The position numbers and the translations under genes were made by a program. Positions 21,948-28,047 of a DNA stretch of 36,602 bases are shown here, piece by piece (within the stretch, counting starts at the first letter, position 1; every line of letters begins with the position of its first letter). Source of the DNA: a bacterium (GTDB taxonomy: Bacteria > Sysuimicrobiota > Sysuimicrobiia > Sysuimicrobiales > Humicultoraceae); assembly GCA_030018905.1 (NCBI GenBank), contig JASEHJ010000005.1:1-36602 (forward strand), in the 5' to 3' direction. The notes beneath the pieces are model-generated. The model did no database searches. It was not told where the DNA came from and saw only the letters and a program-made list of their open reading frames with translations.

Positions 21948-22235
21948 CTATCTCTGCGCCGTTTTACGCCGCCGGCTTCCGGCCATTTTGCCGATCCGGC
22001 CGGCCACGGTGGCTGGAGCCACCGGCGTAGGGTAGAGGCGGGCGGCCGTCACCACGATCGCCCTGGCCGACGGCAGAAGTCCGGGTTCTACCAGGCGGCC
22101 GGCGGCTGCGGCCCGCGCGAGTAGGTTTCGGCCTTCAGAAGACCGCCGCAGCCCTCGGGCGTCGAGAATCGCCACTACCTCCCGCAAGTCCACCACGGTG
22201 TCCCCGCCCAAGTAGACGAACAGCCCGGCGCTCAC
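21948..22235 (-). CDS. DUF370 family protein (RemB/YaaB-like)
   Basis: FVYLGGDTVVDLREVVAILDARGL fits the DUF370 pattern. Position between recF and gyrB matches yaaB/remB in Bacillus. Confidence 0.75.
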   Translation of the reverse strand: MSAGLFVYLGGDTVVDLREVVAILDARGLRRSSEGRNLLARAAAAGRLVEPGLLPSARAIVVTAARLYPTPVAPATVAGRIGKMAGSRRRKTAQR

Positions 22236-22558
22236 CGCGCCTTCCCCTGGCCCGACCCGCGATCGGGCAGCCTTCGCCGCGCCACCGGCGTCACGTCGGT
22301 AATTGCCCCCTCGCCCAGCTCGCGCCCGAGGGCCGCCACGATCTCTGAGCGCCGCAGCCGGACTTCCTGCCCGGCCGCCTCGTGCGTCACCCCCACGAGC
22401 AACCTCTTGCCCCGTAGGGTAACCGGAGCGCTTACTCCTGCCAGCGCCTGGCCTGCGATCCGCGGCCAGATCTCCCGGGCAGTGGCAAGGTGCACCGCGG
22501 GCTCAATTCCCAGCGCGCGGGCCGCAGCTCTTAGAACCTCTCTAATCGGGACGACCAT
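22232..22558 (-). CDS. DUF721 / DciA-like protein
   Basis: VREVL-type N-terminus, then IEPAVHLATAREIWPRIAGQALAGVSAPVTLRGKRLLVGVTHEAAGQEVRLRRSEIVAALGRELG. Start at ATG 22558 lies inside the end of recF. Confidence 0.82.
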   Translation of the reverse strand: MVVPIREVLRAAARALGIEPAVHLATAREIWPRIAGQALAGVSAPVTLRGKRLLVGVTHEAAGQEVRLRRSEIVAALGRELGEGAITDVTPVARRRLPDRGSGQGKAR

Positions 22559-23640
22559 ATCGCCTCCGCCACCGCGCCCGCTTCCACCGCCAGCACCCTC
22601 ACCGGCCCGGCAACCTGCGGCAGCCCGGTGGAGGTCAGCAGCACCTGTGCCTCGTCCGCCAGCCCCAGGACTCGTTTCTGCCGGTCCCCGTCGAGCTCCG
22701 CGATCGCGTCGTCCAACAGCAGAACAGGGCTCTCTCCCGTCTCGGAGGCCATCACGCCGCGCTCGGCCAACCGGACCGCCAGCATGGCGGTCCGCCACTG
22801 CCCCTGCGAACCGTTTGCGCGCAGCGCAGCGCCCTCCAGCGACAGATCCACGTCGTCGCGGTGGGGTCCTGACAGTGTGGTGCCCCGCTTGATTTCATCG
22901 GCGCGCAGGCGCGCCAATTGCGCCCGTGCTTCTTCCTCTCGGGACTCGTCCGTTTCTCCAGGCCAGGACGGTCGGTAGGCGACGGCGAGCGTGCCCTCAC
23001 CTCCCAGGCGGCTGAACCATGCTTCCGCCTCGGGCGCCACGCGCCGCATGTACTCGGTGCGGTGCGCCGCGATCCTCACACCAAGCGCGACCATCTGGGC
23101 GTCCCAAGCTTCTGTGCCGCCGGGCGCCCCACGCCTCATGTGGGCGTTCCGTTGTGCCACCACCCGATGATACCGGTGCAGCGCGAAGAAGTAGGAAGGG
23201 CTGAGTTGAGCCAGGGCCGCGTCCAGGAGGCGGCGCCGCCCTGCGGCCGAGCCGCGTACCATCTCCAAGTCCCACGGCGCCGCCAGGACAACCGTTAGGC
23301 GGCCGAGCACGCTTCCCCGTGGGGTGGGCGCGCCGTTCACCCGCATCTGTGAGGTCAGGCGCCCGTCCTCCACTGCCAGCGTGATCTCGATCTCCTCTTC
23401 GCGTCCCCGCCGGGAGATCTGTGCCCGCACGCGGGCGGCCGTCTCGCCCCGGAGGATTGCCTCCTCCTCGCGCGCGGTCCGGTAAGAGCGTCCCGTCGCC
23501 ACCAGGTAGACGGCCTCCAGCAAGTTGGACTTGCCCGCCCCGTTGCGGCCGACGAGCGCAGTGATGCCGTCGTCGAGCGCGATGTCCGCTCGGGAGTAGT
23601 TACGAAAGGCGCGGATCCAGAGGCGCCGGAGTCGTGGCAT
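22531..23640 (-). CDS. recF: DNA replication and repair protein RecF
   Basis: LRRLWIRAFRNYSRADIALDDGITALVGRNGAGKSNLLEAVYLVATGRSYRT, LSGPHRDDVDLSL, LLLDDAIAELD. Confidence 0.97.
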   Translation of the reverse strand: MPRLRRLWIRAFRNYSRADIALDDGITALVGRNGAGKSNLLEAVYLVATGRSYRTAREEEAILRGETAARVRAQISRRGREEEIEITLAVEDGRLTSQMRVNGAPTPRGSVLGRLTVVLAAPWDLEMVRGSAAGRRRLLDAALAQLSPSYFFALHRYHRVVAQRNAHMRRGAPGGTEAWDAQMVALGVRIAAHRTEYMRRVAPEAEAWFSRLGGEGTLAVAYRPSWPGETDESREEEARAQLARLRADEIKRGTTLSGPHRDDVDLSLEGAALRANGSQGQWRTAMLAVRLAERGVMASETGESPVLLLDDAIAELDGDRQKRVLGLADEAQVLLTSTGLPQVAGPVRVLAVEAGAVAEAIWSSRLERF

Positions 23641-23872
23641 CGTCTGCGTATGCGGCTGCAATCGCCAGGGTAGGCCCTCCCTGCACGGCGACCAGGTCCC
23701 CGGCGGCCACCCGGCGGCCGCGCTTTGTCTCAACCTGACCGTTGACCAGAACGCGGCGCACCGCGATGAGTGTCTTGGCTTCGCCGCCGGTTCCCACCAC
23801 GCCGGCCCACTTCAACAGCGCGCCGAGGGCGATGGTCTCGGTGTGGATCCTTACCGTGCGCTCATGTGGCAA
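23600..23872 (-). CDS. S4-domain RNA-binding protein (YaaA/RlbA-like) between dnaN and recF
   Basis: TVRIHTETIALGALLKWAGVVGTGGEAKTLIAVRRVLVNGQVETKRGRRVAAGDLV is the S4/YaaA pattern. No in-frame ATG; TTG at 23872 chosen as start. Confidence 0.85.
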   Translation of the reverse strand: MPHERTVRIHTETIALGALLKWAGVVGTGGEAKTLIAVRRVLVNGQVETKRGRRVAAGDLVAVQGGPTLAIAAAYADDATTPAPLDPRLS

Positions 23873-24971
23873 CGCGGACCGGCGCCAGAACGTACGTGTA
23901 GTCCGCTCCTCCGGCCGGGCGCAGCGCACCCGGGCTCAGGGGTCCGGTCAGCTCCAGGATCATTTCGTCCGCGTCGAGCACCGACAGGCACTCAATCAGG
24001 TACCTGGCGTTGAAGGCGGTTGCGACGACATCCCCCTCAGAGGAGACCTGCAGGCGCTCCTCGGATCGGCCGTACTCGGGCGTGTTGGAGGCAAGCGTCA
24101 GCGTGTCCCCCTCGGCTTGAATCCGGACCACGTTGGCCGAGTCGCGTGCGGTGAGGGCGACACGACGCACGGCGGCCAGCAGCCGCTGCGTACCGACGGT
24201 CACGCGTTGCTTGTAGCCCTGGGGAATAACCTGCTGATAGTTCGGGAAGGGCCCTGGAATCAGTCGGCTGACCAGCCTGGCCCCCGGCATGGTGAACAGG
24301 ATCTGGTTCTCCGCCAGAGAGATCCCCACCTCGCCCTCGGCGCTTCCAAGGGCGCGTGTCAACTCGCGCATGGTCTTGGAAGGCACAATGACGCCTATCT
24401 TCTGCGACGCCGGGTTTGCGAGCGCGGCGGTGCGCAGGGCGAGTCGGCCGCCGTCGGTGGCCACCACGCGGATTTCCTTCCCGTCCATCACAAGGTAGAG
24501 CCCGGTTAGGAACACACGCGCGTCATCGGTGGAAACCGCGAACTCGGTCTGGCGCACCATGGTGCGAAGCAACCCGGCGTCCACGCTGGCCACCGGAGCT
24601 GCTTCGGGCTCGGGCATCAGCGGGAAGTCCGACGCCGGAAGCCCCATAAGGTCGTAGGTAACTCTCTCGCACTGGACCTCTACCTCGGTCCCTCCCTCGG
24701 CGACCTTCACCTGCACGGGCGCATCGGGCAGGTTGGAAACGATCTCGCCGAAGAGCCGCGCCGGAAGGGTTATCGCACCGCCCTTCTTGACCTTGGCCGG
24801 CACCTCGGTTTGCATCCCGTGGTCGAGGTCGGTGGCGGCCAACTTGATCGCGTCCTTCCGCGTCTCGATCAGTATGTTGCTCAGGATGGGCATCGTGGCG
24901 CGCGTGGATACGGCCCGGCCCACCAGGGCAACTGCTTTGTTTAGATGATCGTGCGCACAGGTGAACTGCAT
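23862..24971 (-). CDS. dnaN: DNA polymerase III subunit beta (sliding clamp)
   Basis: MQFTCAHDHLNKAVALVGRAVSTRATMPILSNILIE... with ADEMILELTGPLSPGALRPAGGADYTYVLAPVR C-terminus. Confidence 0.98.
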   Translation of the reverse strand: MQFTCAHDHLNKAVALVGRAVSTRATMPILSNILIETRKDAIKLAATDLDHGMQTEVPAKVKKGGAITLPARLFGEIVSNLPDAPVQVKVAEGGTEVEVQCERVTYDLMGLPASDFPLMPEPEAAPVASVDAGLLRTMVRQTEFAVSTDDARVFLTGLYLVMDGKEIRVVATDGGRLALRTAALANPASQKIGVIVPSKTMRELTRALGSAEGEVGISLAENQILFTMPGARLVSRLIPGPFPNYQQVIPQGYKQRVTVGTQRLLAAVRRVALTARDSANVVRIQAEGDTLTLASNTPEYGRSEERLQVSSEGDVVATAFNARYLIECLSVLDADEMILELTGPLSPGALRPAGGADYTYVLAPVRVAT

Positions 24972-24983
24972 GCGCGCCTCCTT

Positions 24984-25042
24984 CTATATCTTTATTGTAA
25001 TCAAACAGCAGTAGTAGTAGGCGGTGTGCGCTTTGTGGACAA
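24984..25042 (-). promoter_or_regulatory. Putative origin unwinding element: DnaA box + GC-rich spacer + DnaA-trios + AT-rich tract
   Basis: Minus strand 5'->3': TTGTCCACA (25042-25034), 13-nt spacer AAGCGCACACCGC (25033-25021), CTACTACTACTGCTG (25020-25006), AT-rich TTTGATTACAATAAAGATATAG (25005-24984). Confidence 0.72.
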
Positions 25043-25070
25043 CCGCCCAGGAAGCCTGGGCATGGATCGT

Positions 25071-25128
25071 TGAGGCCTCATGCCCTCCTGGACGGCGTGG
25101 GGACATCTCAGCGAAGCATGAGGCCTCA
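25071..25128. repeat. 13-bp perfect inverted repeat TGAGGCCTCATGC / GCATGAGGCCTCA with 32-nt spacer
   Basis: Arms 25071-25083 and 25116-25128. Each arm carries the 10-bp palindrome TGAGGCCTCA. Located in the dnaA-dnaN intergenic region. Confidence 0.75.
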
Positions 25129-25181
25129 CGTACTCCACGCCCTTCAGTCGTCCACATGGTCCCACGTGTGCGCACAGGATA

Positions 25182-26555
25182 TCAACCTTGACGTTGAAGG
25201 TCTTCCATCAGGCGTTTGATGCTGGCCGCCAGGTGGGCGTCCCTTTGAAGCGCTTCGCGCACCCGCCGGCACGCGTGCATAACCGTGGTGTGATCGCGGC
25301 CCCCGAACTCCTCACCGACGCGCGGCAGCGAGGCGTCGGTGATCTCTCGAGCCACGTACATGGCCACCTGGCGCGGGAAGGCCACGCCCTTGGTGCGGCG
25401 CTTGGCGCGCATCTCTTCCACCCGCAGGCCGAAGAACTCCGCCACCGACTGCTGGATGGACTGTATTGTCACGACCCTGGCGCGCGCGGGAGGCAGCAGA
25501 TCGCGCAGCACGTCCGCGGCCAGCTCCACGCCGATGGGCGAGCGGGTGAGAGAAGCGTACGCGACCACGCGCACCAGCGCGCCTTCCAGTTCCCGGATGT
25601 TCGTGTGGATGCGCTGGGCGATGAACTCCGCGACCTCGCCGGGCACGGAAAGCCCATCACTCTCGGCCTTCTTGCTCAGGATAGCGATGCGGGTCTCCAG
25701 GTCGGGAGGCTGGATATCTGCGATCAGCCCCCACTCGAAACGGCTCCGGAGACGGGCCTCCAGGGTTGGTATCTCCTTGGGCGGCCGATCGGACGAGATG
25801 ATGATCTGGTGGTTGGTCTCGTGCAGCGCGTTGAACGTGTGGAAGAACTCCTCCTGCGTGCGCTCCTTCCCCGCCAGGAACTGGATGTCGTCTATCAATA
25901 GGACGTCCACGCTGCGGTACCGCTGACGGAACTCCAGGGTCTTGTCGTCCCGGATCGAGTTGATCAACTCGTTGGTGAACTTCTCGCTGCTGACATACGC
26001 GACCCGCGCGATGCCCGCGCCGTGCAGCACCCGGTGCCCGATGGCCTGGAGCAGGTGTGTCTTGCCCAGGCCTACGCCGCCGTAGATGAACAGGGGGTTG
26101 TAGGCCCGCGCAGGCGACTCGGCCACGGCCATCGCCGCCGCGTGGGCGAACCGGTTTCCGGCGCCCACGACGAACGTTTCAAAGGTGTACTTGGGCGAGA
26201 TGTGGAGCCCTTCGGGAACGCGGGATGGCGCAGGAGAGGACGGCGCCGCAAGGCGGGGGACCGGTGCCGCGAGGTTGGGGGCCGGCGCGGGCGGCGCGGC
26301 CTCGACGACCGAGATGCGCACGCCCACATCGCGTCCGACCACGACGCGCAGTGCCCGCCGGATCGTGTCCATCAGCCGCTGTTCCACCCAGTCCTTCGCA
26401 AAGCGGTTTGGGACGGCGAAGTGAAAGGTGTCATCCTGGAGGCCGACGGGACGCATCACCCGCAGAAACGATTCGAGGGTCGGCTTGTTGAGCTGCCCTT
26501 CTATTCGTCGCAGGGCTTCCGTCCACAACTCGGCGGGGGAGACTTCGATCGTCAC
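25182..26555 (-). CDS. dnaA: Chromosomal replication initiator protein DnaA
   Basis: KYTFETFVVGAGNRFAHAAAMAVAESPARAYNPLFIYGGVGLGKTHLLQAIGH, LLIDDIQFLAGKERTQEEFFHTFNALHE, C-terminal GGRDHTTVMHACRRV. GTG start at 26555 chosen. Confidence 0.98.
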   Translation of the reverse strand: MTIEVSPAELWTEALRRIEGQLNKPTLESFLRVMRPVGLQDDTFHFAVPNRFAKDWVEQRLMDTIRRALRVVVGRDVGVRISVVEAAPPAPAPNLAAPVPRLAAPSSPAPSRVPEGLHISPKYTFETFVVGAGNRFAHAAAMAVAESPARAYNPLFIYGGVGLGKTHLLQAIGHRVLHGAGIARVAYVSSEKFTNELINSIRDDKTLEFRQRYRSVDVLLIDDIQFLAGKERTQEEFFHTFNALHETNHQIIISSDRPPKEIPTLEARLRSRFEWGLIADIQPPDLETRIAILSKKAESDGLSVPGEVAEFIAQRIHTNIRELEGALVRVVAYASLTRSPIGVELAADVLRDLLPPARARVVTIQSIQQSVAEFFGLRVEEMRAKRRTKGVAFPRQVAMYVAREITDASLPRVGEEFGGRDHTTVMHACRRVREALQRDAHLAASIKRLMEDLQRQG

Positions 26556-26598: not shown

Positions 26599-27390
26599 TT
26601 AGGACTTGAAGATCTCATCGAGGAAGGCAATGCCCTCCTCCGTGAGTGTGCGCTTCCCGTGCCCCTTCCCCGTGGCAAGCTTGAGGGTTTCCAGGGACTG
26701 AAGCTCACGGTACGCTGTGCTGTGGCTGATGTCGAGCTCCTTGGCGATCGTCGTGGGGCCCGCCGCGCCCAACTCGGCGACCAACAGCAGCACCTTCTTC
26801 TGCCGCGGGGTGATCGTCGGGGCCCGGCGAGGGGCCGGCTCCGGGGCCGTCTCGGGAGCGGACGGCTCCTGCTGTATGCGCAGCGTAACCACGGTGCCGT
26901 GGTCCAAGTTGTCCTCTATGGACAGCGAACCGCCCAGAAACTGCATCTGCTCCCTTGCCACCGGCAGCCCGCTGCCAACGCCGCGGATGAACCGACGCAT
27001 CTCGGCGGTGGCGGTGGAGAAACCCGGCACCACCGCGCGCTCCTTGTCGGAGATCCCCGGCCCTTGGTCGGCGACGCGAATCGTGTTGCCGTCATCGAGG
27101 ACGGTGACCGTGGCGTTGTGGAAATAGGCGTGTATCAAGTTTTCAATGATCTCCTTGATGACAACAAACGGCACCCGTCCCCCGCGTTCATGTGATACCG
27201 CGTACGTGCGCGCCGCCAGCTCGCCGACGAGCGCGTGGAAATCGTCCCCGCGCAGCGAGATAACCCTCGGAGCCGCCAGGGGCGAGTCGTAAACCGCCAG
27301 GCGCACCTCCGGCTCGGCATCGTCGCCGGCAGGCAGCGGCGCGACGCGCCGCTCCTCGATCAGCCGCGCGATGATTTCACGAATGGACAT
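26599..27390 (-). CDS. GHKL/HATPase-domain protein fused to a C-terminal winged helix; putative regulator adjacent to dnaA
   Basis: N box FVVIKEIIENLIHAYF, G1 VADQGPGISD, G2 IRGVGSGLPVAREQM, GTVVTLRI; then linker and HTH ITPRQKKVLLLVAELGAAGPTTIAKELDISHSTAYRELQSLETLKLA. No DHp/H-box seen. Confidence 0.85.
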   Translation of the reverse strand: MSIREIIARLIEERRVAPLPAGDDAEPEVRLAVYDSPLAAPRVISLRGDDFHALVGELAARTYAVSHERGGRVPFVVIKEIIENLIHAYFHNATVTVLDDGNTIRVADQGPGISDKERAVVPGFSTATAEMRRFIRGVGSGLPVAREQMQFLGGSLSIEDNLDHGTVVTLRIQQEPSAPETAPEPAPRRAPTITPRQKKVLLLVAELGAAGPTTIAKELDISHSTAYRELQSLETLKLATGKGHGKRTLTEEGIAFLDEIFKS

Positions 27391-27505: not shown

Positions 27506-27755
27506 TGTGGACAACACGACCCGGACAGACATGGGGTTCGCGCTGCCGCGCCCGGCATCCTCTGTCCGAGGCCAACCCGAAAACCAGCGGGGGCAGCGGG
27601 GCCTGGACGTTATCCACAGGTGTGGAAAACCCTGTGGACAATGGAGGGGGTTTTGGGGGCATTTTCGCGCATCCGTCGGTGAACCTTGGGTCCGACTCGG
27701 GTTCGGTTCGGGCGTTCGCGGTCAAAGATGTGGACAGGGGCACGGGTTATGCACA
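27506..27755. promoter_or_regulatory. DnaA-box cluster, putative upstream lobe of oriC
   Basis: TGTGGACAA 27506-27514, TTATCCACA 27610-27618 (perfect consensus), TGTGGAAAA 27621-27629, TGTGGACAA 27633-27641, TGTGGACAG 27729-27737, TTATGCACA 27747-27755, in the gap where gene orientation flips. Confidence 0.8.
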
Positions 27756-27906: not shown

Positions 27907-28047
27907 GTGAAGCGCACATATCAACCCAAGAATCGGAAGCGCGGGCGCGTACACGGCTTTCGCGCGCGCATGCGCACCCCGGGCGGACGCCAGACGCTGA
28001 AGCGCCGGAGGGCGAAGGGGAGGCACCGGCTGACCGTTTCCGGGTAG
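27907..28047 (+). CDS. rpmH: 50S ribosomal protein L34
   Basis: GTG start after [52 protein letters not shown]. Confidence 0.98.

Follow-up and report, generated by a model that had tools for sequence, protein, structure and literature searches.

In Bacillus subtilis, the basal unwinding system (BUS) of the chromosomal origin oriC is made of DnaA-boxes 6/7 and DnaA-trios and lies between dnaA and dnaN (PMC6669920, PMC8287927, PMC10721633). A BUS comprises, in this order and polarity, a DnaA box carrying at most two mismatches, a distance of 0-16 nt, three or more 3'-NAN-5' trios in a row (preferably GAT) and AT-rich DNA, all within oriC. Such systems are predicted in about 85% of 2,070 species (PMC8287927), and a tandem second box with at most four mismatches is present in about 57% of species according to the published BUS survey. 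An element with the same location and polarity as in B. subtilis is found in the window, i.e. the whole stretch of 36,602 nt that was analysed. We consider, with a probability of about 0.92, that this element is the BUS of the chromosome's oriC. Opening of the chromosome for copying almost certainly begins in the short region that separates dnaA from dnaN.

The element occupies part of a 210-nt gap between dnaA (25182-26555, minus strand, stop at 25182; Pfam Bac_DnaA, Bac_DnaA_C and DnaA_N) and dnaN, which encodes the sliding clamp (23862-24971, minus strand, ATG at 24971; Pfam beta-clamp domains). The longest open reading frame of dnaA begins at 26708, and its start is likely the GTG at 26555. 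Read on the minus strand, the element and the beginning of dnaN are TTGTCCACA AAGCGCACACCGC CTACTACTACTGCTG TTTGATTACAATAAAGATATAG AAGGAGG CGCGC ATG, i.e. box, spacer, trios, AT-rich tract, ribosome binding site (24977-24983) and start codon, the last A of the AT-rich tract abutting the first A of the ribosome site. Direct reading of this strand thus confirmed the coordinates, the strand and the order (box, 13 nt, trios, AT-rich DNA) given by the initial annotation. The DnaA box TTGTCCACA (25034-25042, minus strand), whose position is kept in relatives, is the predicted anchoring site in double-stranded DNA. It has one mismatch to TTATCCACA and lies 13 nt from the trios.

The 13-nt spacer AAGCGCACACCGC (25021-25033, minus strand) had been described as GC-rich; its length is correct, but with 9 G+C out of 13 it is no richer than the surrounding DNA (64-68%). 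From comparison with relatives, it appears better read as a decayed second box of 9 nt followed by a 4-nt linker, as in the published BUS architecture. The putative second box AAGCGCACA (25025-25033, minus strand), recognized by alignment with the true second boxes of relatives, abuts the first one and retains only the CACA. It has five mismatches, versus at most four in the tandem-box criterion, and its counterpart in congeners, GAGTGCACA, has four. Many members of the order have clear second boxes, for instance CTATCCACA and CAATCCACA. Hence, the single adjacent box previously reported has to be amended: in relatives two boxes abut, and a remnant of the second persists in the window. The linker that separates the box region from the trios, CCGC (25021-25024, minus strand), corresponds to linkers of 2-4 nt, mostly 3-4 nt, in relatives.

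The five DnaA-trios CTACTACTACTGCTG (25006-25020, minus strand) read CTA CTA CTA CTG CTG, and the complementary strand reads 3'-GAT GAT GAT GAC GAC-5'. All five are A-centred, and they are followed by AAA, since TTT, the first triplet of the AT-rich tract, can also be read as a sixth trio (3'-AAA-5'). The two CTG triplets had been viewed as degenerate. However, 3'-GAC-5' retains the captured 3'-GA-5' and differs by the third base alone; they are therefore not degenerate at the bases that matter. The third base of a trio faces away from the DnaA pocket (PMC10721633). The AT-rich tract TTTGATTACAATAAAGATATAG (24984-25005, minus strand), which also serves as dnaN leader and is A+T-rich in relatives, contains 18 A+T out of 22, one of the highest A+T contents of any 22-mer in the window. 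It is likely the first DNA to melt.

The gap harbors other motifs. A second DnaA-like box, TCGTCCACA, lies in the opposite orientation (25148-25156, plus strand) and has a counterpart at this position in two of three congeners. A GC-rich inverted repeat located just upstream of the DnaA box at 25034-25042 (CCCAGG-CTT-CCTGGG, 25046-25060, minus strand) gave no call in a terminator scan; congeners have a similar GC-rich stretch, ending with GGGCGG, at this position. In addition, a 10-nt palindrome, TGAGGCCTCA, occurs in two copies (25070-25129, minus strand) and is not kept in congeners.

When the 210-nt gap was shuffled 20,000 times with its dinucleotides preserved, the strict form of the module (box with at most two mismatches, 0-16 nt, then CTACTACTA) never arose, and the loose rule of three NAN trios used in the published survey was satisfied 688 times (about 3.4%). 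Since chance satisfies the loose rule in about 3% of cases, it is the strict form, together with conservation, that carries the argument. Furthermore, the genome (2.75 Mb) contains a single copy of the exact module, and a genome-wide search for a box, 8-18 nt and CTACTAC retrieved this site and one weaker match (box TCATCCACA). This weaker match (GTAGTAGGCGTGGTAGCCGGTGTGGATGA), whose sequence is also present in most of the phylum at a separate locus not adjacent to dnaN, was set aside; it is probably coding sequence.

The dnaA-dnaN gap was also compared among 35 genomes of the same order, which belong to seven families and whose DnaN identity ranges from 94-95% down to about 50%. The succession of box, box, short linker and trinucleotides just upstream of dnaN is found in about 33 of them, and the box is usually followed by an abutting second box, 2-4 nt, trios, AT-rich DNA and the dnaN ribosome site. 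For instance, L013 carries TTATCCACA CTATCCACA GCC TTA CTA GTA CTA and L025 carries ATATTCACA CAATCCACA GGTT CTA CTA CTA CTA CGA CGA. The two others (L010 and L022) could not be put in register. Hence, the alignment across relatives proposed in the initial annotation reveals an arrangement conserved in both close and distant ones.

The surroundings are those of an origin. The gene order, gyrA-gyrB-dciA-recF-dnaN-dnaA / rpmH-yidD-jag, is of the origin type. The run dnaA-dnaN-recF-dciA-gyrB-gyrA includes a gene for the replicative helicase operator DciA (22232-22798, minus strand; Pfam DciA, 2e-13). Six DnaA boxes with 0-1 mismatch are clustered between rpmH (27907-28047) and dnaA (27506-27755), with a similar spacing in most relatives, and this cluster is the predicted other half of a bipartite oriC, as in B. 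subtilis. The cumulative GC skew of the window has a flat minimum from 25.0 to 27.6 kb. As the assembly consists of 340 contigs, the long-range skew was read instead from 400 kb of a member of the same family (G007), whose dnaA lies on a contig of 3.15 Mb. There, the bin with the minimum is 1034001-1035000 and the start of dnaN is at 1035197. The skew minimum expected at this locus is therefore present in the window and in G007.

Such a bipartite organization leaves another reading, namely that opening occurs in the upstream half (27506-27755), with the dnaA-dnaN element serving as a secondary site for DnaA binding or regulation. The number and quality of the upstream boxes, the conservation of their cluster and the position of the lowest cumulative skew of the window (27585) would fit this reading. 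However, the skew is flat over the whole interval and the trios themselves are conserved at dnaN, beyond boxes alone. Moreover, no trio array was seen beside the boxes when the sequence of the upstream cluster region was read, and in a stricter scan the sole box-plus-trio match of the window was the one at dnaN; likewise, the dnaA-dnaN site was the sole match in the 400 kb of G007. Opening in the upstream half is thus very unlikely, and we retain the dnaA-dnaN element as the BUS.

A gene encoding a GHKL ATPase fused C-terminally to a winged helix (26599-27390, minus strand) lies inside the bipartite origin, between the upstream cluster and dnaA. Its N, G1 and G2 motifs look intact, and the protein had no NCBIfam match at the curated cut-off. 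Almost every genome of the phylum carries this gene at dnaA, with identities of about 56-95%, and one genome from another phylum has it as well (G057, 51%), again placed between rpmH and dnaA. The protein may be a lineage-specific regulator that acts on dnaA or oriC.

The relatives also provide information on the bases of the trios. Only the boxes and trio 1 served to set the register, which was fixed by a scoring rule. In trios 2-5 of the 35 genomes, the middle base on the trio strand is A in 80 cases, C in 59, G in one and T in none, and none of 5000 within-sequence shuffles reached the observed middle-base periodicity. Without L010 and L022, all 132 middle bases are A or C (33 genomes). As close relatives are not independent, changes were counted by parsimony: in one most-parsimonious reconstruction on the DnaN tree of the 33 genomes, the 24 changes at the middle position are all A<->C transversions, versus 31 transitions and 15 transversions at positions 1 and 3 of the same trios (Fisher p about 1e-8). 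A-to-G transitions, which neutral drift to high G+C would favour, are absent at the middle base. The published survey demanded an A at this position, and its authors (Pelliciari et al. 2021) suspected the existence of trios without middle adenine. The C-centred trios of the relatives break this "NAN" search rule; by our own count, 14 of the 33 genomes lack a middle A in at least one of their first three trios. In B. subtilis, C substituted well for A at the middle base in vitro and, in vivo, better than G or T; both bases carry the amino group that contacts Asn187. The A<->C pattern seen in sequences of relatives fits this biochemical amino-group rule and lends it natural support.

The trio code of this phylum-level lineage is quite probably N-M-N (M being A or C, which carry an exocyclic amino group) rather than N-A-N. 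In that case, trios with a central C, for instance 3'-GCT-5' and 3'-GCC-5', would be functional and common, the Asn187/amino-group rule found by mutagenesis would be confirmed by natural sequences, and one reason why the NAN search misses some origins would be explained. An extension of the A/C rule to other phyla was not retained: C-centred trios are a minority there, and strong use of C is seen in this order. Indeed, the middle bases of trios 3-5 at named, mostly Bacillota, loci are A in 124 cases, C in 12, T in five and G in three, and those of distant genomes, placed with loose anchors, are A in 64, C in seven, T in 12 and G in 10. A simple NMN search, which is a crude rule, gained 11 of the 35 members of the order and 10 of 150 other genomes, with few matches on the opposite strand. 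The trios of a sister species (L151) read CGA CGA CGA TGA CGA, with C in the middle.

The view that the CTA/CTG run is devoid of any role in opening, being either a trinucleotide microsatellite or promoter or ribosome-site context within the dnaN leader, was rejected as very improbable: the run does lie 35 nt from the dnaN start, next to an AT-rich tract that doubles as leader, but it gave no sigma-70-type promoter, terminator or Rfam match, it stays at a near-constant distance from the DnaA box across families whose DnaN proteins are only about 50-60% identical, and neither slippage nor leader function predicts middle-base changes exclusively between A and C.

The DnaA residues that would read the trios are conserved as well. 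The DnaA of the window aligns to residues 60-504 of B. subtilis DnaA in the structure of the BUS complex (8btg). Eight residues involved in trio binding or oligomerization (E183, N187, I190, R202, K222, E223, E228 and R264; PMC10721633, PMC8287927) are all present; N196 is replaced by D. Among the 32 readable relatives, E183, N187, I190, R202, K222 and E228 are identical in all, and E223 is Pro in five; the Arg finger R264 is present in 33 of 33. At position 196, whose residue contacts the third base of the trio (the uncaptured one), 27 relatives have Asp and five have Gly. One clade (L012, L020, L148, L149 and L151) combines Gly196 and Pro223 (B. subtilis numbering), located near the trio and phosphate contacts. 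Its trios are rich in middle C, and it is possible that these residues and the C-centred trios co-vary.

The BUS-like reading initially made from order and polarity is thus supported by conservation, GC skew and DnaA residues. By analogy with the work done in B. subtilis, domain IV of DnaA would bind the box at 25034-25042. A DnaA-ATP oligomer would then extend over the weak second box and the 4-nt linker onto the 3'-GAT GAT GAT GAC GAC-5' strand, where each pair of protomers would use the initiator-specific motif to capture GA, the first two bases of a trio, and would stretch the strand. The duplex would melt toward the AT-rich tract and dnaN, so that the helicase could load, and the box cluster upstream of dnaA would act as the partner half of the bipartite origin.

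This type of element is already known, and the A/C constraint seen in relatives had been predicted before but not yet charted. Our analysis extends the range of bacteria with a clear BUS to an uncultured, GC-rich lineage of phylum level. Furthermore, the relatives can be viewed as a natural mutagenesis series: along the tree, the middle base changed about 24 times, each time from A to C or from C to A, in agreement with the claim, made from structures, that Asn187 of DnaA reads the amino group of the middle base. The C-centred arrays of these relatives provide concrete sequences for the suspected trios without middle adenine and point to an improved search rule for origins in which trios went undetected (15%).

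As in B. subtilis, the element combines a box, about 13 nt, GA-type trios and AT-rich DNA with conserved DnaA contact residues and a second box cluster upstream of dnaA. It differs from the B. subtilis BUS by the GC-rich lineage that carries it, the almost complete loss of the second box in the genus, the Asp (or Gly) instead of Asn at DnaA residue 196 and the many C-centred trios of relatives. The same module and order are also known outside Bacillota, in Helicobacter pylori, whose origin is also bipartite, Deinococcus radiodurans and Synechococcus elongatus (PMC8287927). The BUS of these three species was demonstrated by a strand-separation assay, whereas that of the window is predicted from sequence. 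Thermotoga maritima likewise has TAG-type repeats that DnaA reads in single-stranded DNA near DnaA boxes (DUE with eTrio, PMC10316083). However, it needs repeats located further from the box and a TTATT motif, whereas the strong trios of the window start right after the 4-nt linker.
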